From positions 1-64,000 of IMG/VR virus record IMGVR_UViG_3300037071_001584: 64,000 bases of DNA; one strand, written 5' to 3'. This document shows positions 143 to 9,613 of the stretch, piece after piece. Within the stretch, counting starts at the first letter, position 1; each line of letters begins with the position of its first letter. Made by a program: the position numbers and the translations under genes. Below the pieces are notes generated by a model. The model had not been told where the DNA came from. It saw nothing but the letters and a program-made list of their open reading frames with translations, and did not search any database. The DNA comes from a virus.

Positions 143-1174
143 ATGACAGAAATAAATTTAAATAAAGTTTTTGTTACAAAATCTAATCTTTTGAATCATA
201 TATCAGACTATGAAATATACAAAATGTATATAGGTAACACTGCTATAAATACAAAAGGGAGGATAAGATCTCCGTTAAGAGAAGATGAATCTCCTTCATT
301 TGGATTCTTTATTGGAGAGACTGGTGAATTATGTTTTAAAGACTTTGTTCTTGGTTCAGGTGATTGTGTAAGGTTTGTTATGTTTAAATTTGGACTTACT
401 TATTTTGAAGCATTAAGCCAGATTGCAATAGACGCTAACTTAGATGATAAATTTATTATAAAAGCTTCGTTTAAAACAAGCGTAATAAGTGACAGTAAAG
501 GAAAAAGAGAAGACTTCGTTAAAACAGTAAATTCGAACTATCTTGGTAAAACAAGTAGGAATTGGGAAATAAGAGACTACGTCTTTTGGAATCAATTTGG
601 TATAACTAAGCCAATATTAGAGAGGTATAATGTTCAACCTGTAGCATATCTACATGTTGGAATAGATAAGAAGATAGTTAAACCTGATTTTCATACGTAT
701 TGTTACAATGAAATGAAAGATGGAATTAATTCTTTTAAAATATATCAACCTAATAAAGAGGAATACAAATGGTTAAACAACCATAATGATTCTGTATGGC
801 AAGGATGGACTCAATTACCAGAAAAAGGAGATACTCTTATAATTACTAAATCATTAAAAGATGTTATGGCTATTGCTGGAGTAACAGGAATACCTGCTGT
901 AAGCTTACAAGCTGAAGGTAGTAAACCTAAACAAAGCGTGATAGACGAACTTCAAGAAAGATTTGAAACTATATTCGTATTATATGACAACGATTATGAT
1001 AAAACTGTCAATTGGGGTAGAGAGTTTGGACGAAAACTTTCTAGCGCACATGGATTTTGTCAAGTTGAAATAGAAGAGGCTTATAGATCAAAGGATTTCA
1101 GTGACTTAGTAATGAATCATGGCGAAAAGCTTTCAAGAAAATACTTAGAAGAACTAATAGAAAGACCTTTTTAA
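143..1174 (+). CDS. DnaG-like DNA primase, divergent
   Basis: Probably makes RNA primers for phage DNA replication. The first ~110 residues follow the DnaG zinc-binding (CHC2) domain pattern around SPLREDESPSF, but most Cys/His zinc ligands are absent. The second half (about residues 225-320) matches a TOPRIM fold: a strand-turn reading LIITKSLKDVMAI, then the acidic cluster LYDNDYD. The usual TOPRIM glutamate is not seen at the first motif (TKSLKD instead of EGxxD). At 343 aa it is shorter than bacterial DnaG (about 580-600) and lacks the DnaB-interacting C-terminus. It starts 15 bases after a terminator's T-run, with an A-rich leader. The fold is likely; activity and partners are inferred. 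Confidence 0.75.
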   Translation: MTEINLNKVFVTKSNLLNHISDYEIYKMYIGNTAINTKGRIRSPLREDESPSFGFFIGETGELCFKDFVLGSGDCVRFVMFKFGLTYFEALSQIAIDANLDDKFIIKASFKTSVISDSKGKREDFVKTVNSNYLGKTSRNWEIRDYVFWNQFGITKPILERYNVQPVAYLHVGIDKKIVKPDFHTYCYNEMKDGINSFKIYQPNKEEYKWLNNHNDSVWQGWTQLPEKGDTLIITKSLKDVMAIAGVTGIPAVSLQAEGSKPKQSVIDELQERFETIFVLYDNDYDKTVNWGREFGRKLSSAHGFCQVEIEEAYRSKDFSDLVMNHGEKLSRKYLEELIERPF

Positions 1175-1176
1175 AA

Positions 1177-1599
1177 ATGGAAGAAAAAATCATAGTTGGA
1201 GTATATGATGGCCTTAGAAAAAATGGAGAATCTCATGATTTATTTATGTCAAAAGCTAACTACTTAGGCACATTTTATACTGAGCCAGAATTCTCACTAT
1301 TTTCATTCTCTAAAAAATATCCAGCACTAAGTTTAGGAGGTTCCACTTCTGTTTTGTTAGAAGTCTATGAGGTTACTGAAGAAATTTTAAAGACAATAGA
1401 TTACTATGAAGGGTGTAATGACATAGATCCTTATATGAATATCTATAATAAAGCAGAGATTGAAACTCCGTTTGGTGAATGTATTATCTATATCTACAAC
1501 AGGATGGTAGTAAACAAGCCGCTTATTGAATCAGGTGATTGGTTTAGATTTAAAAAAGAAGTAAGACAACGAATAGAAGAAACAAGAAAAATAGTATAA
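1177..1599 (+). CDS. Gamma-glutamylcyclotransferase-like (AIG2/GGCT) protein
   Basis: This 140-aa protein has the GGCT/AIG2 pattern: the N-terminal strand and loop VGVYDGLRKNGESH corresponds to the YGTLRRG-type substrate loop. A later segment, TIDYYEGC, fits the position of the family's D/E-rich catalytic region. Family members release pyroglutamate from gamma-glutamyl amines or peptides. The ATG lies 3 bases after the primase stop, and the ATP-grasp gene starts 3 bases after its own stop, so it is embedded in an operon with ligases and glutamine-handling enzymes. That context suggests it trims or turns over a gamma-glutamyl-type product made nearby. The fold assignment is fairly secure; the substrate is unknown. 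Confidence 0.75.
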   Translation: MEEKIIVGVYDGLRKNGESHDLFMSKANYLGTFYTEPEFSLFSFSKKYPALSLGGSTSVLLEVYEVTEEILKTIDYYEGCNDIDPYMNIYNKAEIETPFGECIIYIYNRMVVNKPLIESGDWFRFKKEVRQRIEETRKIV

Positions 1600-1602
1600 A
1601 TC

Positions 1603-2481
1603 ATGGTAATAAACATTAATTCAAAAAAGAAAGTAGGAGATGTTCTATTATCAGTTGCATTAAGAACTGGTAAATATGTTCCAATGATTAGAAGCAGACA
1701 TCCTTCTCATGCAGGTTTAAGAAGAGCTTTACCTAAACTTCCGTTTAGAAGTGTCATCAGACTAGGCTCTCTGACTGTATTAGAGGACGATAGCAGCAAG
1801 AAAGGGAACAGGGTGGAACTGAACAGTGCATTGGCTATAAAGAATAGCTCTAGCAAGCTTAAAATGAAGCAATGTTTTACTCAAGGAGGCGTTAAAACAG
1901 CTGAATGGATATATTCTACAAGTGAGAATGATATCATAAATTGGCTGAAGGAATATCCAATTGTGGCTAAAAGCCATATGGGTTCTCGCGGAAGAGGAAA
2001 TACATTGTTGAAAACTGAAGCTGAAGTAAGAGCTTTTATTAGAAGCAAGGATCTTTCACATTACATTTTTGAAAAGTATTATAACTACAACAAGGAGTAT
2101 AGATTGCATGTCAGTGCTGACGGTTGCTTTTATGCTTGTAGAAAAATGCTTAAGAATGAATTTAAAGATCATCCTAATGCGTGGCAAAGACATGATGACA
2201 ATTGTTCTTGGATACTTGAAGAGAATGAAATGTTTGACAAACCTACAAATTGGGCTAATATAATTGATCATTGCGTTAAAGCATTGATTAGTTGTGGTCT
2301 TGATTTTGGAGCATGTGATTTGAGAGTTCAAAACAATATTGATAAAGAAGGAGTTAGAAGACTTCAACCTGACTTCATTGTTGTAGAGATTAATTCTGCG
2401 CCATCATTTGGTAAAGTTACTCTTGAAAAATACAAAGAAGTATTACCTCAACTTTTAGTTAAAAAACATGAAAATCGTTAA
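1603..2481 (+). CDS. ATP-grasp ligase, RimK-like
   Basis: This 292-aa protein shows ATP-grasp landmarks. A lysine-containing strand, YPIVAKSHMGSRGRG, is followed by a glycine-rich nucleotide-binding loop. IFEKYYNYNKEYRLHV carries the acidic hinge and the basic strand. The metal-binding end reads DFGACDLRVQ and then VVEINSAPSFG, where E and N are the usual Mg-ATP ligands. ATP-grasp enzymes activate a carboxylate as acyl phosphate and join it to an amine. The 14-base overlap with the next small gene, and the flanking cyclotransferase and amidotransferases, place it in an amide-forming pathway. Substrates cannot be read from sequence. Phage ATP-grasp ligases next to glutamine-synthetase-fold amidoligases have been noted in comparative genomics. 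Confidence 0.8.
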   Translation: MVININSKKKVGDVLLSVALRTGKYVPMIRSRHPSHAGLRRALPKLPFRSVIRLGSLTVLEDDSSKKGNRVELNSALAIKNSSSKLKMKQCFTQGGVKTAEWIYSTSENDIINWLKEYPIVAKSHMGSRGRGNTLLKTEAEVRAFIRSKDLSHYIFEKYYNYNKEYRLHVSADGCFYACRKMLKNEFKDHPNAWQRHDDNCSWILEENEMFDKPTNWANIIDHCVKALISCGLDFGACDLRVQNNIDKEGVRRLQPDFIVVEINSAPSFGKVTLEKYKEVLPQLLVKKHENR

Positions 2482-2689
2482 AAAAGGAGATGAACCAACT
2501 TTTGTTCCTATAACCTTATATATTACTATAGAGAGCAAAGAGGAGCAAGAGACGTTATTATCATTATTTAAAACAATAACTTCTCATGAGTTAACAACAA
2601 TTGCTTTAAAGAATACAAAAGAACATCTTAACCAAAAGGTTATTAGCACATTTATAGGAGGTTTTTATAATTCATTATTAGATAAATAA
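2468..2689 (+). CDS. Small protein of unknown function in the amidoligase cluster
   Basis: A 73-aa protein that I do not recognise. It begins with ATG inside the 3' end of the ATP-grasp gene (14-base overlap), which suggests translational coupling. The sequence alternates short beta-like (FVPITLYITIES) and helical stretches and is neither membrane-like nor Cys-rich. Its position between the ligase and the two amidotransferase-like genes suggests a carrier, adaptor or regulator for the pathway, but no motif (for example a carrier-protein serine) supports a specific role. Confidence 0.65.
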   Translation: MKIVKKGDEPTFVPITLYITIESKEEQETLLSLFKTITSHELTTIALKNTKEHLNQKVISTFIGGFYNSLLDK

Positions 2690-2696
2690 AAAAAAC

Positions 2697-3437
2697 ATGA
2701 AAAAAATAATTGGAGTTTATGCTGATGTAGCAAATGGTAGAGTTGGTCAAACAGCTCCGTATATGCAATTCTTAGGTCAATTTGGTAATGTACGTTTAAT
2801 ACTACCTACTGACAATTTAAGAGAGGTTGCAAAAAGTATTGATATGTTAGTATTGCCTGGAGGTTCTGATATAAATTCTGCCAAATATAATCAAGCGCCA
2901 GATATTATGACAGGACGTCCTAATATGCATTTTGATTATTTAGATGCTAATCTGTTGCCTTTGGTAATTGAGATGAAGAAACCTATTTTAGGTATTTGTC
3001 GAGGTATGCAAGCATTAAATGTTCACTTTGGTGGTACATTAAATCAGCATGTTATTGGTCATCACCAAGGAGACAATCGTGCTGCTACAAAGCAAGAAAT
3101 TCAATTTGAAGACGGAAAGAAACCGCATATGATTAACTCTATGCACCATCAATCTGTTAACATTTTAGGAGATGGTTTTGAAATTGTAGCTTATAGCCAA
3201 TGTTATCAAGGATGTTATTCTGAAAAGAAACATGTTAGAAACTGGTATTTTGTTGATGACAAGAAGAAGAAAGAATTCTTTGAATGTATTGTCATCATTG
3301 AGATGATTAAGCACAAAAATCTTCCTATTGTTGGAGTTCAATGGCATCCAGAGGAGTTCAATTGTAAAGTTACAGTTGATTGTATTAACACTTTATTAAA
3401 AGAATATGAAGAAAAAGTTAGCAGTCCTAGTAAATGA
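2697..3437 (+). CDS. Class I glutamine-amidotransferase-like hydrolase (peptidase C26 type), copy 1
   Basis: This 246-aa protein has the class I glutamine amidotransferase triad: nucleophile C101 in LGICRGMQ, then H and E in QWHPEEF near residue 220. VLPGGSDINSAKY and the MHHQSV segment are typical of the gamma-glutamyl-GABA hydrolase (PuuD) or C26 peptidase branch, which cleaves gamma-glutamyl amides. It could release ammonia for the neighbouring amidoligases or hydrolyse their product. It overlaps the next gene by 32 bases, and the next gene is a divergent second member of the family. The enzyme class is confident; the substrate is not determined. Confidence 0.85.
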   Translation: MKKIIGVYADVANGRVGQTAPYMQFLGQFGNVRLILPTDNLREVAKSIDMLVLPGGSDINSAKYNQAPDIMTGRPNMHFDYLDANLLPLVIEMKKPILGICRGMQALNVHFGGTLNQHVIGHHQGDNRAATKQEIQFEDGKKPHMINSMHHQSVNILGDGFEIVAYSQCYQGCYSEKKHVRNWYFVDDKKKKEFFECIVIIEMIKHKNLPIVGVQWHPEEFNCKVTVDCINTLLKEYEEKVSSPSK

Positions 3438-4086
3438 TTCAGCAGATTATGAATCTTATGTTGCGTTCCTTAAACTAAAATATGATATTGAGCTTGTAAA
3501 GCTTTCTTCTATTGCAAAGAAAGAAACGATTCCTGAGATTGATTTAATGTTGTTTACTGGAGGAGAAGATGTTGATCCAGCTTATTACAATGAGAAACCT
3601 GGAAAAAGAACATTCTATAATCCTTCAAGAGACAATGATGAATCTAAAATGTTTAGAATGCTAAATCAAAAGATTCCAAAACTTGGAATTTGTAGAGGAA
3701 GTCAATTCTTAACTGTAATGAGTGGTGGTAAATTAATACAACATGTGGAAAATCATGGTATTGGTGGAACTCATTCAATTACATTTGATTATATTCATAA
3801 TCATAAAATGCAGATTACGTCAACGCATCACCAAATGATGTATCCTTTTGATTTATCAAAGAAAGAATATATACTTTGTGCTTATGCAACCAACTATTTA
3901 AGTCCTATATACTTAAATGGTAATGACAGAAACATTGAAGTGCCTGAAGAATTCTTGGAGCCAGAGATTGTATTCTATCCTAGAAGTAATTCTTTAGCAA
4001 TTCAAGGTCATCCTGAATCTGGTATTATGTCAGATGATGGAAAAATGTTTATATTGAACTATATAGACAATGTATTAAAGCTTTAA
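3406..4086 (+). CDS. Class I glutamine-amidotransferase-like hydrolase, copy 2
   Basis: A second, divergent C26/PuuD-like protein of 226 aa directly after the first. The nucleophile is C96 in LGICRGSQF, a HHQMM segment corresponds to the HHQSV of copy 1, and H-E of the triad occur in IQGHPESG near the C-terminus. MLFTGGEDVDPAYYN matches the PGG(S/E)D substrate loop. The two copies share motifs but little else, so they may act on different gamma-glutamyl substrates or form a heterodimer. The ATG at 3406 lies within the end of copy 1; about 25 A/T-rich bases separate the stop from the next gene. Confidence 0.85.
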   Translation: MKKKLAVLVNDSADYESYVAFLKLKYDIELVKLSSIAKKETIPEIDLMLFTGGEDVDPAYYNEKPGKRTFYNPSRDNDESKMFRMLNQKIPKLGICRGSQFLTVMSGGKLIQHVENHGIGGTHSITFDYIHNHKMQITSTHHQMMYPFDLSKKEYILCAYATNYLSPIYLNGNDRNIEVPEEFLEPEIVFYPRSNSLAIQGHPESGIMSDDGKMFILNYIDNVLKL

Positions 4087-4111
4087 CATTAAACCTTTAA
4101 ATTATAAAAAC

Positions 4112-4930
4112 ATGGAAAAAATTGTAGAAAACAAGCATGGAGTTACCTTAGGTAGTGATCCTGAGATTTTTATATGTAATGCTGAAGAGATCGTCTCAGC
4201 AGAAGGTTTAACAGGTGGAACGAAACACGATCCCGTTCCAATTAGCGAGGAAGGACATATGATTCAAGAAGATGGTATTGCTCTCGAGTATAACATACCA
4301 GCTTGCTCCACAGTAGAGGAGTTTATTGCTCATCATGAATTTGTTCAAGACTATTTTAAAGTTTTAATCGCCGCTCATGGTTATGAGTTTAGCAAAGAAA
4401 GAAGTGCGGATATTAATCCAATCTTCTTGCAAACTGAGCAAGCTCAAACATTTGGGTGTGAACCTGATTATAACGTTTATACTAGAAGCGAGAACGAAGC
4501 TCCTGAATCAGGACAGAATTTAAGATGTGTTGGAGGTCATATTCACATTGGATATCCAGATCCAGACCAAGACGTTACTGAGAAAATTGTAATGATGTTT
4601 GACATGTTTGCAACCTTGCCATCTCTATTTAAAGACAATGATACGCGTCGTAGAGAATTGTATGGTAAAGCCGGTAGTTTTAGGTTTAAGATTTTTGGAT
4701 TAGAATGTAGAGCATTGTCTAACTTTTGGATTCATACAAGAGAAGACATGACTTGGGTATGGAATCAAACAATGAGAGCTGTTAATTGTGTTCTTGACGG
4801 AGAGTCTGATGCTTTAATTGAAAAGTATTCTTCTGATGTTAGAAATGCAATTAATACTGCTGATTTAAAATTAGCAGCTGAATTGATGATCATGATTGAT
4901 CATGAAGTACAAAAAGAAGTGGTAGAATAG
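4112..4930 (+). CDS. Glutamine-synthetase-fold amidoligase (phage COOH-NH2 ligase type 2)
   Basis: This 272-aa protein matches the phage amidoligase family described around phiEco32-like phages. Near the N-terminus is LGSDPEIFI, carrying a metal-binding acidic residue. DGIALEYNIPA supplies further glutamates, GGHIHIGYP a histidine pair, and KIFGLECRALSNFW a basic/acidic pair at the active site. The family has the glutamine synthetase catalytic fold and is predicted to ligate a carboxylate to an amine using ATP. It sits between the glutamine hydrolases and the class II amidotransferase. Product and acceptor are unknown. Confidence 0.8.
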   Translation: MEKIVENKHGVTLGSDPEIFICNAEEIVSAEGLTGGTKHDPVPISEEGHMIQEDGIALEYNIPACSTVEEFIAHHEFVQDYFKVLIAAHGYEFSKERSADINPIFLQTEQAQTFGCEPDYNVYTRSENEAPESGQNLRCVGGHIHIGYPDPDQDVTEKIVMMFDMFATLPSLFKDNDTRRRELYGKAGSFRFKIFGLECRALSNFWIHTREDMTWVWNQTMRAVNCVLDGESDALIEKYSSDVRNAINTADLKLAAELMIMIDHEVQKEVVE

Positions 4931-4951
4931 ACAAACAAACAAGACTAAATA

Positions 4952-6919
4952 ATGGAAATAAAAATTTTATTACTACTATTATTAGCACATTATATACTCT
5001 TCTTTCTATTTAGAGGGAAGGGTGATGTGCTCGCTTGCGGTATATTTGGATGGTCTGGAAGCAGAACTACAAGATTTAACAAGCAAAAATTTGATATTCT
5101 AGGACTTTTTAACAATTCAAGAGGTGGAGATTCATGTGGAGTGTCTACAGATGGAGAAATCTATTATGGTACACTTTTAAACAAAAGTTATGATGACTTT
5201 GTTGTTAACAAGAATTATCTTTCTCCTGTAAGAATTCCTGTTGTTATTGGACATTCTCGTAAAGCAAGTGTTGGAGCTGTAAGTGAAACAAATGCTCATC
5301 CATTTGGATTTGGAGATTTAGGAGAAGGTCATGCTTTTATTGGGTGTCATAATGGTACTTTAAGCAATTATGAGGAACTTGGTAAAAAATATGAAGTCGA
5401 AACTTCTGTCTACAGTGAAAGAAATATGTTCCTAAGGACTAAAGTAGATTCTGAAATACTATTGGAGATACTATATAAAACTAAAGATACGGAAGTATTA
5501 CAAGAATATATAGGAGGAGCTGCTTTATTATTCCAAAATTTAGAAGAACCTAACACATTATTTGCATTTCATGGAGCTTCTAAAAAAGAAGTTGGAGATA
5601 GAGGTGAAACTTTATACGAAGAAAGACCTTTATATTACTATCAAGAAGCAAAAGATTCAGTTTACATTTCTTCAATAGAAGAAGCTTTAATATTCATAGG
5701 TGGAGAAAAAGACAAAACTGTTTTTGAATTTGATCACAATCTTTTGTACAAAATCAAAGATGGAAATGTTGATAAAGCTGTAACTTATGAAGTGGACAGG
5801 AGAGGAGCTGGCCAAAAGAAACCCTATGGGGGTGCGGGTTTTTGCATGGGTGGGACGGCTACTGGGACTAATACTGCCAGAAACCACGGTCCTGCCAAAA
5901 GGGGAAAGCGAAAAGAAAGAAGTAAATCTAGACGGTTCAAACAAATAGCAAATGTCGCAAATATATACGATGAAACTGTTATTGAGGGAGACTTTAAATC
6001 TGCAATATATTATAACAAATTAAGATATTGGAGAAATGGTCACTTAATAGATGGTGTTTTCACATATATTAAAGGATTTGGTTTGTATAAGATCGGAGAT
6101 CAAGCTTCTGATTCAAATAATAAATTGTATCAATTGATGGGAGAACACTTTAGTCTTGAAGATGGTATGTTTTTAGATACTGTTTATTTAGAACAAAGAC
6201 TCGCTCTTGATGAAACTATATTTGTACCATTTGAATTTAGTACAAAGGAACCACCTGTATTCTTCTTTCATAATGGAATCATGCTAGAAACAATGCATGA
6301 CTTTGCTGCATTAAATGGAGAGTATGCAAGTAAATTTTCCTTTGAACATTTATCGCAAATGTCTAAATACCCTATCTGTAGAATGCGCAAGAATCGGCCA
6401 GACAATAACAGACAAGAAATACTTTATAATGGTCAGCCTTATACCAATAATTTTATACCTTTGCAATGTAATAATTGCTACAATATTGAAAATGGTAATT
6501 TAATCAATATAGATAGGTTAGAAGAAATTGTTGTGAAAGAAGCTGAAATTTGTTGTTCTGTTAAGATTCCTTCTACTAATGAGGTGATACAGTTGCCCAT
6601 GGAATTTGATGCTCCAATTATGGGGCCGAATAGTTTGATCAATGCATATCATCCTGCTAGACCAACTGTTGAATTTCTGGATGAAGATCCTCCTATTGAA
6701 GATTATTTCCAAAAAAAGGGAGATGATGAAAAGGTTTTGAGCATCATTAATAAGCACATTATGCCAGTTTACACACAATTGCAAACTTGTAATGAGGATC
6801 TTAAAAATGAAGAAGATGAAACTATTCAAGAGCTTATTGACTTAAACAAGGATTACTTATTGAGTGTTGACTGTATTGTTGAATCAAAATCCAAAGAAAA
6901 TGAAGGAGAAGCTAGTTAA
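4952..6919 (+). CDS. Class II glutamine amidotransferase with C-terminal extension and hydrophobic leader
   Basis: Residues ~29-290 form a class II (Ntn-type) amidotransferase: ACGIFGW with candidate nucleophile C29, SRGGDSCGV, IGHSRKASVG, and CHNGTLSNYEEL. The family releases ammonia from glutamine using an N-terminal Cys. Here C29 is preceded by a leader with a strongly hydrophobic stretch (about residues 3-20), so the nucleophile must be exposed by processing or by a later start. An in-frame GTG at 5027 would give a start three residues before the Cys. Residues ~300-335 form a Gly/Lys/Arg-rich linker encoded by a locally GC-richer stretch (about 5800-5930). The remaining ~320 residues are unrecognised. 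The end overlaps the next gene by 20 bases. Confidence 0.8.
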   Translation: MEIKILLLLLLAHYILFFLFRGKGDVLACGIFGWSGSRTTRFNKQKFDILGLFNNSRGGDSCGVSTDGEIYYGTLLNKSYDDFVVNKNYLSPVRIPVVIGHSRKASVGAVSETNAHPFGFGDLGEGHAFIGCHNGTLSNYEELGKKYEVETSVYSERNMFLRTKVDSEILLEILYKTKDTEVLQEYIGGAALLFQNLEEPNTLFAFHGASKKEVGDRGETLYEERPLYYYQEAKDSVYISSIEEALIFIGGEKDKTVFEFDHNLLYKIKDGNVDKAVTYEVDRRGAGQKKPYGGAGFCMGGTATGTNTARNHGPAKRGKRKERSKSRRFKQIANVANIYDETVIEGDFKSAIYYNKLRYWRNGHLIDGVFTYIKGFGLYKIGDQASDSNNKLYQLMGEHFSLEDGMFLDTVYLEQRLALDETIFVPFEFSTKEPPVFFFHNGIMLETMHDFAALNGEYASKFSFEHLSQMSKYPICRMRKNRPDNNRQEILYNGQPYTNNFIPLQCNNCYNIENGNLINIDRLEEIVVKEAEICCSVKIPSTNEVIQLPMEFDAPIMGPNSLINAYHPARPTVEFLDEDPPIEDYFQKKGDDEKVLSIINKHIMPVYTQLQTCNEDLKNEEDETIQELIDLNKDYLLSVDCIVESKSKENEGEAS

Positions 6920-8912
6920 AACAATTAAAGGAGAAGATCGTAATGAGAAAGACTGTAGACTTATTGATGGACAATACTATTATATAGGGGACATCCATAG
7001 AGAAAACTCTGGAGATATATATCTAATTAACAATAGATATATAAGAGCGTCTACTGAAAGAATCGTATTCGATCATTTTGAAGGTGAGTATAAGTTGAAA
7101 AATAGCAGTTTAACTCATGGTATAATTGATATTGAAGACGGAACTCCTGTATTTGGTTATTTCTCTAAAAATGATCTTTATAACGTAAAGGTTATAGTTA
7201 AGGATTTGAGCGAAAGAGTTGCAATTTCAGCAAATGTACTTGGATATGAATTCAGAGAAAGAAGATCTGATGGAGTGTTCTATCACATTTCCCTTTTAGA
7301 TGCTAATAAGTTTAACCTGCTTAGAGGTATTTCAAGAGAAATAAAAGAAAGCTTTCCTTATGATTCTAAAGGGTCTATTGCTAAAATTACAAAAACATTT
7401 GAGTCTAATTACAAACCTGTTATTTGTAGAAATGCAGAAATTGTAGGTAAAACTTTAAAGGATTATACATTTGGATTAGAGTTTGAAACATGTGCTGGAA
7501 TAATACCTAATAATAAATTAGTATACTTGCCATTAATACCATTGAGAGATGGTTCAATTAGCGGTATAGAATATGCTACAATTCCATTAAAAGGTCCAGT
7601 AGGAGTTCAAGCATTAATTGATTCTGTAGATGAATTGAAAAGAAGAACATCCTATAGTGATGAATGCTCTTTACATATACATGTTGGTGGTATGCCAAGA
7701 ACGACTGAGTATATATTAGCATTCTACAAGACTATATCATTGTTGCAAAATGACATATTTTCAATGTTCCCGCTTTACAAGAAATATAATTTTGGCGTTA
7801 AACGTAAAAACTATAGCGCGCCATTTCCATTTGAAGAGATTAACTTTAGAATGGATCCGATCATAAATTATAATGATAAAAAGCAGGTTAATAAGAATTT
7901 TGATCATTTGTTCACATATTTATCTGGAGGTGTAACTTTCGCAGAATATGGTAATGATTTAAGTCAAGTACTTGTACATCCTCAAGATCCTCAAGGAGCT
8001 GCTAAATGGAATATTAAGCATAGATATTCTTTTGTAAACTTAATTCCTTTAATATTTGGAAATCATCAAACTATTGAATTTAGAATTCATACACCAACGT
8101 ATGATATAAATAAAATATTGGATTTCTTGATGTTGAATATTTATATAATTGATTATGTTAACATAAACTATAAATTGATTCTTGCAGGCAAAGATACTTT
8201 ATCTATCATGAGACCAAGCTTGCAGTTTATGTTAAATGATTATGTAAATAACATTGAAGGAAGTAGTAGAAAAACTATATTTAATGAGTTAAATCGTTAT
8301 ATTAGTGAAAGAAAACATGCTTCTGAAGACATTGCAAGAACAAAAGGTGTTGTTTACCAAGAAGAAGACTTAAGACTTCCTAAAGGTTTAGGATTTAATA
8401 CCTACAAATACCATAGATCAAATGGATCTTATTTTTCAGCTTCATATCTTGAAGATATTCTATACGAAAGTAGTCTGAGTAGCTTTGACAGCCCTTTTGC
8501 TGAGGCTTCTATTAAATTCGAAGATGTAAATCCTTCTGCTAAATTAAAACTTCGCAGTGATGTTGGAGTTTCTCCTAAAAGGAGGCCAAGAGATTTAGCT
8601 AGAGAGAAAGAAGTTTTAGAATCTTCAAGAAAAGCTCTTGAACAGATACAAGCATCTGAAAAAGAACGTTTAGATAAGGGGTTAGGTGGAGGTTTATATG
8701 AGCAAATGAGACAAGCTGCTGAAATTAGATATTCTCTTAAAGACAATGGAACTAGGCCTGTAATTTCAGATCCTGGAACTTTATCTGGACTTGGTGTATC
8801 TACTTTTGGAACTAGCGGCTCTGTTCAAGTTAAAGAAAGTTCTTATGATTGGACTCTTAAGGCTTCTAAGTCTAATGATGATTGGGAAGAATCTATACAT
8901 AAACCAGAATAG
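6900..8912 (+). CDS. Second amidoligase (Amidoligase_2-type, glutamine-synthetase fold)
   Basis: A GTG at 6864 also opens this frame, but I choose the ATG at 6900, which gives 670 aa and a 20-base overlap with the preceding amidotransferase. The first ~180 residues are unrecognised. The core starts at YTFGLEFETCAG and continues with RDGSISGIEYAT, a CSLHIHVGG histidine segment, and TIEFRIHTPTYD near residue 400. This order is characteristic of the Amidoligase_2 family. The C-terminal ~200 residues are Ser/Lys/Glu-rich and probably flexible. With the type 2 ligase upstream, the phage has two different predicted amide-forming enzymes plus an ATP-grasp ligase in one operon. Confidence 0.78.
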   Translation: MKEKLVKTIKGEDRNEKDCRLIDGQYYYIGDIHRENSGDIYLINNRYIRASTERIVFDHFEGEYKLKNSSLTHGIIDIEDGTPVFGYFSKNDLYNVKVIVKDLSERVAISANVLGYEFRERRSDGVFYHISLLDANKFNLLRGISREIKESFPYDSKGSIAKITKTFESNYKPVICRNAEIVGKTLKDYTFGLEFETCAGIIPNNKLVYLPLIPLRDGSISGIEYATIPLKGPVGVQALIDSVDELKRRTSYSDECSLHIHVGGMPRTTEYILAFYKTISLLQNDIFSMFPLYKKYNFGVKRKNYSAPFPFEEINFRMDPIINYNDKKQVNKNFDHLFTYLSGGVTFAEYGNDLSQVLVHPQDPQGAAKWNIKHRYSFVNLIPLIFGNHQTIEFRIHTPTYDINKILDFLMLNIYIIDYVNINYKLILAGKDTLSIMRPSLQFMLNDYVNNIEGSSRKTIFNELNRYISERKHASEDIARTKGVVYQEEDLRLPKGLGFNTYKYHRSNGSYFSASYLEDILYESSLSSFDSPFAEASIKFEDVNPSAKLKLRSDVGVSPKRRPRDLAREKEVLESSRKALEQIQASEKERLDKGLGGGLYEQMRQAAEIRYSLKDNGTRPVISDPGTLSGLGVSTFGTSGSVQVKESSYDWTLKASKSNDDWEESIHKPE

Positions 8913-8914
8913 AC

Positions 8915-9613
8915 ATGAAGGTAATCTATTACAAAGAAGATAGTAGCTTTAATTTGGCTGTTGATTATGGTAAAATGATTGGTAATGGTTGGTCTAGAAG
9001 ATTGAAAGAATATCTTCACAGTAAGGATATGCAAGATACTATGTATGAAGTTTCTAAATTATACACTAACAAGCATTTAGCTATGTTTCCTGCAAAGGAT
9101 CAAATTTTCGCTTCATTAGGTAAAATGGATCTTACTGAGATTAATGTTGCCATAATAAATTGTAATCCTACGTTTAATTATAGAAGTAATGGCGTTGCCT
9201 TTTCTAATACATCTAAGCACAGAGGAGATATCGACCTTCAATTGTCTAACTTATTTGATAAGATAAACATCTATGAAAGAAGAACATCTTCTGCTGAGGA
9301 TTACACTTTAGACCATTGGATAGAACAAAGTGTGTTTTTATTCAATGTATCATTAACTGGATTCACTAGTTATAACCAACGTTCTTTATGGTTTGGATTC
9401 TCAAGAGCTGTTATTGAGACCATTAGTAGATGTAGGCAAGGATTAGTTTTCTTATTTATAGGTACAGAAGAACAATGCAAGCTTTACAGCGAAAAAGTCG
9501 ACCAACGAAAACATACGATTTTAAGACACGATACACTTAGCTATGACGCGCTAAATGAAGTCAACCTTGAAATCGATAGTATAGATGGTAAAGATTATAG
9601 AATTAAATGGTGA
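8915..9613 (+). CDS. Uracil-DNA glycosylase-fold protein with substituted catalytic motif
   Basis: The 232 residues follow family 1 uracil-DNA glycosylase. MDLTEINVAIINCNPTF aligns with the strand and catalytic loop that normally ends GQDPYH, followed by SNGVAFS for HGLAFS. A middle segment, SVFLFNVSLTG, corresponds to VLLLNxxLTV. In that loop N84 replaces the catalytic Asp and the Gln is Cys. The C-terminal HPSPLS-type DNA-intercalation loop is also not recognisable (ILRHDTLSYDA instead). It may therefore bind DNA without excising uracil, or act on another base. It overlaps the RusA-like gene by 29 bases. Confidence 0.7.
   Translation: MKVIYYKEDSSFNLAVDYGKMIGNGWSRRLKEYLHSKDMQDTMYEVSKLYTNKHLAMFPAKDQIFASLGKMDLTEINVAIINCNPTFNYRSNGVAFSNTSKHRGDIDLQLSNLFDKINIYERRTSSAEDYTLDHWIEQSVFLFNVSLTGFTSYNQRSLWFGFSRAVIETISRCRQGLVFLFIGTEEQCKLYSEKVDQRKHTILRHDTLSYDALNEVNLEIDSIDGKDYRIKW

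Follow-up and report, generated by a model that had tools for sequence, protein, structure and literature searches.

We analyzed a 64,000-nucleotide stretch of viral DNA, referred to here as the window (bases 1 to 64,000 of the 78,775-base IMG/VR record IMGVR_UViG_3300037071_001584), with a focus on a gene cluster at positions 1177 to 8912. This locus consists of seven enzyme genes and one small open reading frame (ORF), all on the plus strand, with a primase gene upstream and a uracil-DNA glycosylase (UDG)-like gene downstream. As judged from sequence comparisons, it is a Crassvirales version of a known phage amidoligase cassette, often with a pair of C26 hydrolases. A preliminary description of the window had listed these genes as codirectional with short gaps or overlaps, and we confirmed their positions and arrangement (gaps of up to 25 bases and overlaps of up to 32). 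The genes are as follows (aa, amino acids; E, E value).

1177..1599, plus strand: GGCT/AIG2-like gamma-glutamyl(amine) cyclotransferase (GGCT), 140 aa; PF06094 (E, 6e-14) and phrog_2520
1603..2481, plus strand: RimK-like ATP-grasp ligase, 292 aa; phrog_2599 (9e-34) and PF02222 (5.6e-6)
2468..2689, plus strand: orphan ORF of 73 aa; no family match
2697..3437, plus strand: class I glutaminase-like/PuuD-like hydrolase (C26a), 246 aa; PF07722 (Peptidase_C26; 7e-32)
3406..4086, plus strand: class I glutaminase-like/PuuD-like hydrolase (C26b), 226 aa; PF07722 (Peptidase_C26; 8e-20)
4112..4930, plus strand: type 2 COOH-NH2 ligase, 272 aa; PF14395 (2.6e-6) and phrog_3815 (7e-72)
4952..6919, plus strand: class II glutamine amidotransferase (GAT-II)/N-terminal nucleophile (Ntn) hydrolase with an N-terminal hydrophobic helix and a C-terminal domain without an assigned function; GATase_6 (6e-10)
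6900..8912, plus strand: Amidoligase_2 protein of the glutamine synthetase/glutamate-cysteine ligase (GS/GCS) superfamily with a mostly beta N-terminal domain, 670 aa; PF12224 and phrog_2443 (2.6e-23)
Flanking, 143..1174, plus strand: DNA primase, outside the cassette; phrog_12622 (4.6e-59); the same neighbor in phi14:2 and cr108_1
Flanking, 8915..9613, plus strand: UDG-like protein; phrog_12143 (1e-20), with PF03167 at an E value of just 0.036

From the primase to the UDG-like gene, the successive spacings are 2, 3, -14, 7, -32, 25, 21, -20 (with the amidoligase starting at 6900), and 2 bases, negative values being overlaps. The cassette lies within a block of replication and nucleotide genes, with a thymidylate synthase gene further on, on the strand opposite to that of the head and tail genes. 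The portal protein of the record shares 57% identity, across 97% of its length, with the portal of Cellulophaga phage phi14:2; PHROGs families are matched by this protein as well as by the terminase and the major head protein. On the basis of these matches, we assign the source virus to the Crassvirales.

Family placement was assessed by profile searches against Pfam and PHROGs. All seven enzymes fell in the families named in the preliminary description. The ATP-grasp protein and the amidoligase were near the Pfam cutoffs (PF02222, 26.5 bits, slightly below the cutoff of 27; PF12224, E value of 1.4e-4 and 22.2 bits against a cutoff of 22), yet both matched strongly in PHROGs. The seven enzymes of that description therefore stand, with one boundary moved: translation of the amidoligase most likely begins at ATG 6900 rather than at GTG 6864, because the Met at residue 13 counted from the GTG is kept in 46 of 49 aligned rows. 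Among solved structures, the profile of the ATP-grasp protein was closest to the alpha-L-glutamate ligases 7qys and 7qyr, RimK, and cyanophycin synthetase. The relatives of C26a included 3fij, the glutaminase subunits of GMP synthase, and PuuD (6vtv), and the nearest relative of GGCT was YtfP (1xhs; 1.5e-8). Searches of the PDB sequences gave no match for the amidoligase and a single one for the COOH-NH2 ligase (uteroglobin; E value of 1.5), which we regarded as noise.

Most of the residues that we take, from family knowledge, to be catalytic were nearly invariant across the alignments of relatives. Those of the ATP-grasp protein were present in all 109 rows (K85, E165, R167, K181, D239, and E262) or in 102 of them (N264), and those of the COOH-NH2 ligase in all 113 rows (D16, E18, D54, E59, R138, H143, R191, E198, and R200) or in 95 (His145). 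The amidoligase kept E206, E208, D229, E236, H271, and H273 in 97/97 rows (numbered from GTG 6864). The Cys-His-Glu triads were conserved in both C26a (C101 and H217, 56/57 rows each; E219, 57/57) and C26b (C96, H202, and E204, 72/75 each), which together with the C26 profile places both proteins among the PuuD-like hydrolases. For GAT-II, C29 was found in 109 of 110 rows, R103, N134, and G135 in all 110, and D166 in 104; we equate these residues (i.e., Cys29, Arg103, Asn134-Gly135, and Asp166) with the glutamine-binding set. The loosest of the active sites was that of GGCT, in which Glu78 was kept in 67 of 78 rows.

Structural models were examined for the two largest enzymes, with search rows within 1 Z unit of each other counted as tied. 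The AlphaFold model of GAT-II (mean predicted local distance difference test score [pLDDT], 82) has a helix at residues 2 to 19, and its residues 29 to 292 match PurF and GlmS (Z of about 24; top, 24.5) and EgtC (Z, 21.5; 197 residues). EgtC is the gamma-glutamyl hydrolase of the ergothioneine pathway. This fold and the glutamine-binding residues identify GAT-II as a class II (Ntn) enzyme; Pfam recognized no synthase domain of the PurF, GlmS, or AsnB kind in it and no family for its C-terminal domain (residues 331 to 522, approximately). In the amidoligase model (pLDDT, 82), residues 184 to 513 match the GS/GCS superfamily. The best fold matches were Dop, YbdK, and GshF (Z, 11.5 to 10.8; root mean square deviation, 4.3 to 4.6; 231 to 235 residues aligned), and the best 50 rows, which extend from a Z of 11.5 to about 9.4, also include plant glutamate-cysteine ligase and glutamine synthetases. 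A plain Foldseek search gave a best E value of just 0.019. The GS-like fold and the conserved acidic and His/Arg residues are those of an Amidoligase_2 protein. These matches bear on residues 184 to 513 of the amidoligase and 29 to 292 of GAT-II and barely probe the N-terminal domain of the former (residues 1 to 166) and the C-terminal domain of the latter. Two of the ligases are thus supported as members of GS/GCS-related families, the amidoligase by its fold and the COOH-NH2 ligase by family alone. With two amidoligases, an ATP-grasp enzyme, GAT-II, and GGCT in one block and their catalytic residues intact, the locus has the makeup of an amidoligase cassette.

To describe the conservation of the cassette, we compiled 160 sequences (the stretch from the window and 159 loci), which were reduced to 121 nonredundant ones by setting aside the window's own contig (L001, L113, and L114) and repeats sharing >30% of their 31-mers. 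Within L001, an IMG/VR contig of 104,771 bases, the DNA is identical to that of the window over the 14,927 bases compared. A co-occurrence table was prepared from the 77 loci in which the COOH-NH2 ligase gene is flanked by 6 kb or more in each direction; 42 loci with <6 kb on one side (including the stretch from the window) and 2 loci without this ligase were left out. We call a locus "crAss-type" if it holds a homolog of the window's primase, UDG-like protein, RusA, or a 199-aa ORF, a label with no taxonomic meaning. The searches that yielded these loci relied mainly on the COOH-NH2 ligase and C26b, so all counts are conditional and describe cassette carriers rather than phages in general.

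The core of the cassette (i.e., the ATP-grasp protein, COOH-NH2 ligase, GAT-II, and amidoligase) occurred together in all 77 loci (49/49 crAss-type and 28/28 other), so the proposed cluster holds up among its relatives. Because of the profile scores and this synteny, chance grouping of these genes can be considered excluded. The other enzymes were more variable. GGCT was present in 44 of the 49 crAss-type loci (in at least two copies in 9 of these) and in 11 of the 28 other loci, and at least one C26 gene was found in 44 and 21 loci, respectively. Paired C26 genes inside the cassette were common in crAss-type loci (24/49), whereas only 1 of the 28 other loci had them; this count leaves out L067, where one gene is split in two, and L013, where a C26 gene lies ahead of the primase gene. 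The paired hydrolases, part of the composition that the preliminary description had presented as special, are therefore shared by about half of the crAss-type carriers.

Several variants of the hydrolase and cyclotransferase genes were observed. C26b has an N-terminal extension absent from the window copies in L064, L065, L071, L072, L075 to L077, L081, and L090 (282 to 392 aa), and a C26 protein of 334 aa in L056 is likewise extended relative to them. The same nine loci have an additional GGCT gene close to the cassette, as does L001 (L001:155-553), where it lies upstream of the region that the window covers.

A further difference concerns a stand-alone family of about 200 aa (phrog_4877), which we refer to as family X. 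It was found in 21 of the 28 other-type loci and in none of the 49 crAss-type loci, and in podovirus-type loci it lies between the COOH-NH2 ligase and the amidoligase. The crAss-type amidoligase instead has an N-terminal domain of its own. We considered whether family X corresponds to this domain or to the C terminus of GAT-II and rejected both possibilities, as hhalign gave no significant match.

The 73-aa ORF, which had been counted as part of the cluster, did not prove to be a shared component. A profile search of loci L001 to L049 found it only in L001, which has identical DNA, and it had no Pfam or PHROGs match. We therefore rejected the ideas that it serves as a substrate peptide and that it is a conserved part of the cassette; the search, which covered CVT22 (L046), gave no match to the small ORFs between the cassette genes of that phage either. 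In 11 of the 49 crAss-type loci, the slot between the ATP-grasp and C26 genes is filled by a small family of about 135 aa, several members of which have an NCQ motif and which sometimes occurs in tandem (L002:7152-7646, L003:7526-8349, L004:7783-8601, L005:7788-8595, and L006:8173-8589; also L050, L052, L053, L064, L065, and L071). The five members scanned had no clear Pfam or PHROGs match, and the family did not match the profiles of family X, the amidoligase N terminus, or the GAT-II C terminus.

Cassettes of this kind have been described before. A seven-gene "peptidoglycan modification cassette" comprising two amidoligases, an ATP-grasp enzyme, GGCT, and a glutamine amidotransferase was described in the podoviruses PSA-HP1 and RIO-1, with phiEco32, 7-11, PA11, tf, MR299-2, LUZ24, PaP3, and CW02 as other carriers (PMC5498523). 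That paper credits the cassette to Iyer et al. and to Hardies et al. 2013; its citation "Iyer 2002" is to a paper on transcription regulators, and we take it to mean Iyer 2009. The idea of cell wall modification and a block of superinfection is credited to Iyer et al. 2009 (PMC10580990 and PMC11318856), the same wall idea is repeated for a LUZ24-like phage (PMC11945000), and such genes are tabulated in UFV-P2 (PMC3890496). The claim that only smaller sets of these families had been reported from phages is not supported, given the seven-gene cassette in print and the related blocks of PaP3 and phi14:2. In short, the preliminary description was partly supported, being right about the broad chemistry and wrong about rarity.

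The podovirus cassette contains the same enzyme families in one block, with which the PaP3 and CVT22 blocks that we read agree, but its gene order differs from that of the window. A close match was phi14:2 (Crassvirales, Steigviridae; g037 to g041), in which five cassette genes are annotated in the window's order (flanks included, the run is primase, GGCT, ATP-grasp, COOH-NH2 ligase, GAT-II, amidoligase, and UDG, followed by RusA and an exonuclease) and in which the UDG-like homolog is annotated as uracil-DNA glycosylase. No C26 hydrolase was found in the phi14:2 block, whereas the window has two. Another related cassette was found in cr108_1. In the literature searched, where Iyer 2009 and Hardies 2013 were represented by the papers citing them, we found no prior report of the cassette in crAss-like phages; the words "ligase" and "amidotransferase" are absent from the main texts of PMC10136315 and PMC7886860. 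No experimental test of the cassette was apparent by title or abstract among the matches listed.

Relatives of the COOH-NH2 ligase were detected in 314 of 50,697 phage records. Nine of the 10 commonest leading words in the names of these records were Gram-negative genera (the tenth was "phage"), and the bacterial hosts legible in 60 rows spread over the 314 records were Gram negative. Within the Crassvirales, the cassette is, as judged from database records, sporadic: 131 records had a related portal protein versus 29 with a GAT-II match, and among the 25 listed of these 29, only phi14:2 and cr108_1 were recognized as Crassvirales.

The window's GAT-II has a hydrophobic stretch ahead of the catalytic Cys29, consisting of a helix of about 18 residues followed by a short basic linker. 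Distant relatives show the same layout, and phi14:2, one of them, has its GAT-II annotated from the corresponding upstream start. Defining a hydrophobic N terminus as a mean hydropathy of at least 2.0 over 17 residues within the first 60, we found one in 31 of 124 GAT-II ORFs versus 3 of 108 amidoligases and none of the GGCT (0/83), ATP-grasp (0/112), C26 (0/65 and 0/76), or COOH-NH2 ligase (0/119) ORFs. In a tree of 48 GAT-IIs (L124 left out), 23 were anchored (the window and 22 others), 24 lacked an anchor and had Met or Val immediately ahead of the Cys, and 1 fitted neither description (L023, with a nonhydrophobic extension ending in Met before the Cys). The anchorless group includes the Val-Cys rows L003 and L015 and also L038, in which Met-Cys follows 13 further residues.

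Several observations bear on whether this stretch belongs to the protein. None of the 23 anchored rows has Met directly before the Cys, which rules out an ATG start at that position. The linker reads N/T-x-L-x in most anchored GAT-IIs, with Leu at position -2 in 22 of the 23 rows and Asn or Thr at position -4 in 13 and 5 rows, respectively. As a control, the in-frame DNA upstream of 21 Met-Cys or Val-Cys relatives (loci hand-picked from the anchorless group) was interrupted by stops, and its hydropathy with the stops removed peaked at 1.43. Furthermore, the anchor codons had fewer nonsynonymous (pN, 0.15) than synonymous (pS, 0.35) differences over 15 overlapping, nonindependent pairs, which suggests that the stretch is translated and subject to selection. 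Among relatives, the anchor is highly labile: 15 changes of its label were counted on the tree (with 9 or more of them forced by supported branches), a number not clearly different from that obtained when labels are shuffled (mean, 16.0; 180 to 196 of 500 shuffles as low).

Class II amidotransferases require their catalytic Cys at the mature N terminus. Most helix-free relatives begin with Met-Cys, and the Cys of the window is residue 29 behind the helix; the most natural interpretation is therefore a pro-enzyme that undergoes cleavage. According to the positive-inside rule, a basic flank stays cytosolic; thus, the basic flank after the helix would leave the catalytic domain in the cytosol. 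Taken together, the sequences and the model suggest that the window's GAT-II is a membrane-tethered pro-enzyme. A lipoprotein reading, with a lipobox before the Cys, was judged unlikely from the sequence: a basic linker lies between the helix and the Cys, and lipidation would prevent this residue from acting as the nucleophile. Propeptides occur in other class II amidotransferases, i.e., Bacillus subtilis PurF and glutamate synthase, in which an N-terminal extension must likewise leave to free the Cys nucleophile. The phage extension differs from these in being a hydrophobic helix with Leu at position -2 and in varying among close relatives. Compared with EgtC, PurF, GlmS, and AsnB, with which it shares the class II fold and the conserved residues listed above, the window's enzyme is distinguished by the membrane anchor and by the lack of a synthase domain recognizable by Pfam. 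An anchored GAT-II in about half of the tree is, as far as we searched, an apparently undescribed feature: no mention of a GAT-II membrane anchor was found in the same literature, with Iyer 2009 and Hardies 2013 again known through citing papers.

A second class II amidotransferase-like ORF was observed downstream of the amidoligase in 13 loci (L082, L083, L085, L087 to L089, L092, L095, L098, L099, L102, L108, and L109). Nine of their starts were read; eight begin with Met-Cys, and in the ninth Met-Cys follows after 11 residues.

By family and fold, the locus is shown to combine three predicted amide ligases with three kinds of gamma-glutamyl- or glutamine-directed hydrolase. The proposal that the cluster both makes and breaks gamma-glutamyl-type amides gains support from the GS/GCS-related ligases, the RimK-like ATP-grasp protein, the PuuD-like hydrolases, GGCT, the EgtC-like fold of GAT-II, and the largely kept catalytic residues. 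As targets, DNA, a cell wall peptide, and a virion protein had been suggested; our analysis leaves the cell envelope as the best guess, with DNA disfavored and a virion target without support. We tentatively favor, at somewhat less than an even chance, the view that the cassette acts on host cell envelope precursors. Early in infection, the ligases would attach a glutamyl or other amino acid unit, via side chain amide bonds, to an envelope peptide precursor, the most plausible acceptor being the stem peptide of peptidoglycan or the lipid-linked version of it, and the hydrolases would trim, recycle, or deprotect those bonds. The altered envelope may hinder other phages or favor the growth of the phage itself. 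In the window and about half of the relatives, GAT-II would be a membrane-anchored precursor (nearly always with Leu at position -2) stationed by its anchor at the inner membrane and activated by cleavage before Cys29, probably self-cleavage. In PSA-HP1, the cassette genes are transcribed immediately on infection, ahead of the DNA metabolism genes (PMC7082346), a timing more in keeping with takeover of the host than with assembly of virions. The anchor and this early timing would point to an acceptor at the inner membrane and favor an envelope precursor over DNA, a virion protein, or a soluble metabolite.

The best-surviving alternative is a small-metabolite pathway, in which a soluble gamma-glutamyl compound (an antioxidant, a signal, or a polyamine or amine store) is made and broken or in which glutamine or gamma-glutamyl peptides are mobilized for nucleotide synthesis. 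The Puu pathway (PuuA and PuuD), ergothioneine synthesis (EgtA and EgtC), and butirosin synthesis (with an ATP-grasp enzyme and a GGCT for a protecting group) are functional analogs, and the EgtC match of GAT-II (Z, 21.5) and the position among replication and nucleotide genes are consistent with such a pathway. We nevertheless consider it unlikely, given that no cassette gene makes an obvious amine or thiol partner, that three ligases exceed the needs of simple recycling, and that a membrane anchor is unexpected on an enzyme for a soluble product.

Slightly less probable is protein modification, in which the RimK-like ATP-grasp protein and the two GS-type ligases would tag host or phage proteins with glutamyl or other amino acids and the hydrolases would remove the tags, as in RimK and the Pup ligase/depupylase pair. 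The profile of the ATP-grasp protein indeed best matches RimK and alpha-L-glutamate ligases, its PHROGs label is "ribosomal protein S6 glutaminyl transferase," and the amidoligase fold matches Dop and PafA besides YbdK. However, the Dop/PafA match is tied within 1 Z unit with those of YbdK and GshF, and the known relatives of GGCT and C26/PuuD act on small gamma-glutamyl compounds, not proteins. The 73-aa ORF, the small ORF within the block, is not conserved, with no search aimed at a Pup-like tag having been made. We regard protein tagging as unlikely as well.

DNA hypermodification by ligation of an amino acid or peptide onto a modified base is highly improbable. The cassette adjoins the primase and UDG-like genes, with thymidylate synthase further on, and GAT-type enzymes take part in some phage 7-deazaguanine pathways. 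No gene for base hydroxymethylation, a base kinase, glycosyl transfer, or deazaguanine synthesis was recognized, however, in the 32 ORFs scanned with PHROGs, Pfam, or both, many of which lacked an informative match. A DNA target is also disfavored by the restriction of a carrier, Pseudomonas phage tf: its DNA was cut by HaeIII, and RsaI, HpaI, EcoRV, and SmaI fragments were used to clone it (PMC3517423). Equally improbable is cross-linking or decoration of virion proteins: amide ligases could in principle stabilize a capsid, but the cassette is part of the replication block and runs on the strand opposite to the head and tail genes, and the cassette genes of PSA-HP1 are transcribed first, not late (PMC7082346).

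Several points weigh against the envelope interpretation itself. The excerpts of the cassette papers contain no assay tying phage cassette enzymes to peptidoglycan, and the published cell wall interpretation is itself based on comparative genomics (PMC5498523, PMC10580990, and PMC11945000). The substrate side of the ligases is not readable from sequence. By its model, GAT-II may supply ammonia as do PurF and GlmS, whose Z scores exceed that of EgtC, and cleavage before Cys29 is our reading of the N terminus. In the tree, the anchor is absent from about one-half of the GAT-IIs, and the label flips much as in the shuffles; membrane binding is therefore not indispensable. Likewise, GGCT is missing from 5 of the 49 crAss-type and 17 of the 28 other loci and C26 from 5 and 7, respectively, so turnover by these two enzymes is optional, and Glu78 of GGCT is changed in 11 of 78 rows. 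Finally, the cassette is not general in the Crassvirales, as the portal and GAT-II counts indicate.

A fuller version of the envelope interpretation would make GAT-II a zymogen that is held at the inner membrane by its helix, cleaves itself before the Cys, and edits gamma-glutamyl bonds on lipid-linked wall precursors, the cassette as a whole being a membrane-associated envelope machine whose anchor was repeatedly gained and lost with changes of host. This combination of steps we consider rather unlikely, falling between the small-metabolite and protein-tagging alternatives. If the envelope interpretation is true, phages would have a chemical route for changing the host wall from the inside. 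The cassette is found widely among phages that infect Gram-negative bacteria, yet its product is a prediction in the literature that we found. The anchor on one enzyme is a clue to the site of product synthesis, and the question can be approached in the cultured carriers PaP3, tf, PSA-HP1, and phi14:2.

Some cassette genes are interrupted by inserts (L002:7648-9339, L006:12751-15470, and L015:4871-6130), and further splits were seen in the C26 genes of L065, L067, and L077 and in the amidoligase gene of L088. Two splits hit active-site motifs: in L002, the GICRG motif of C26a is interrupted, and in L015, the GGHIHIG motif of the COOH-NH2 ligase. ORFs of 233 and 237 aa, which may encode endonucleases, are found within the L002 and L006 inserts, respectively. 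An origin of the splits from group I introns received no support: an Rfam scan of the window, L002, L005, L006, and L015 at the gathering threshold found no intron, its matches being three tRNAs only, in L006 and L015. Elsewhere, a GroEL-like chaperonin gene (phrog_5725; 1e-112) was observed beside a terminase gene at L161:7272-8732 (positions 70,771 to 72,231 of the record).

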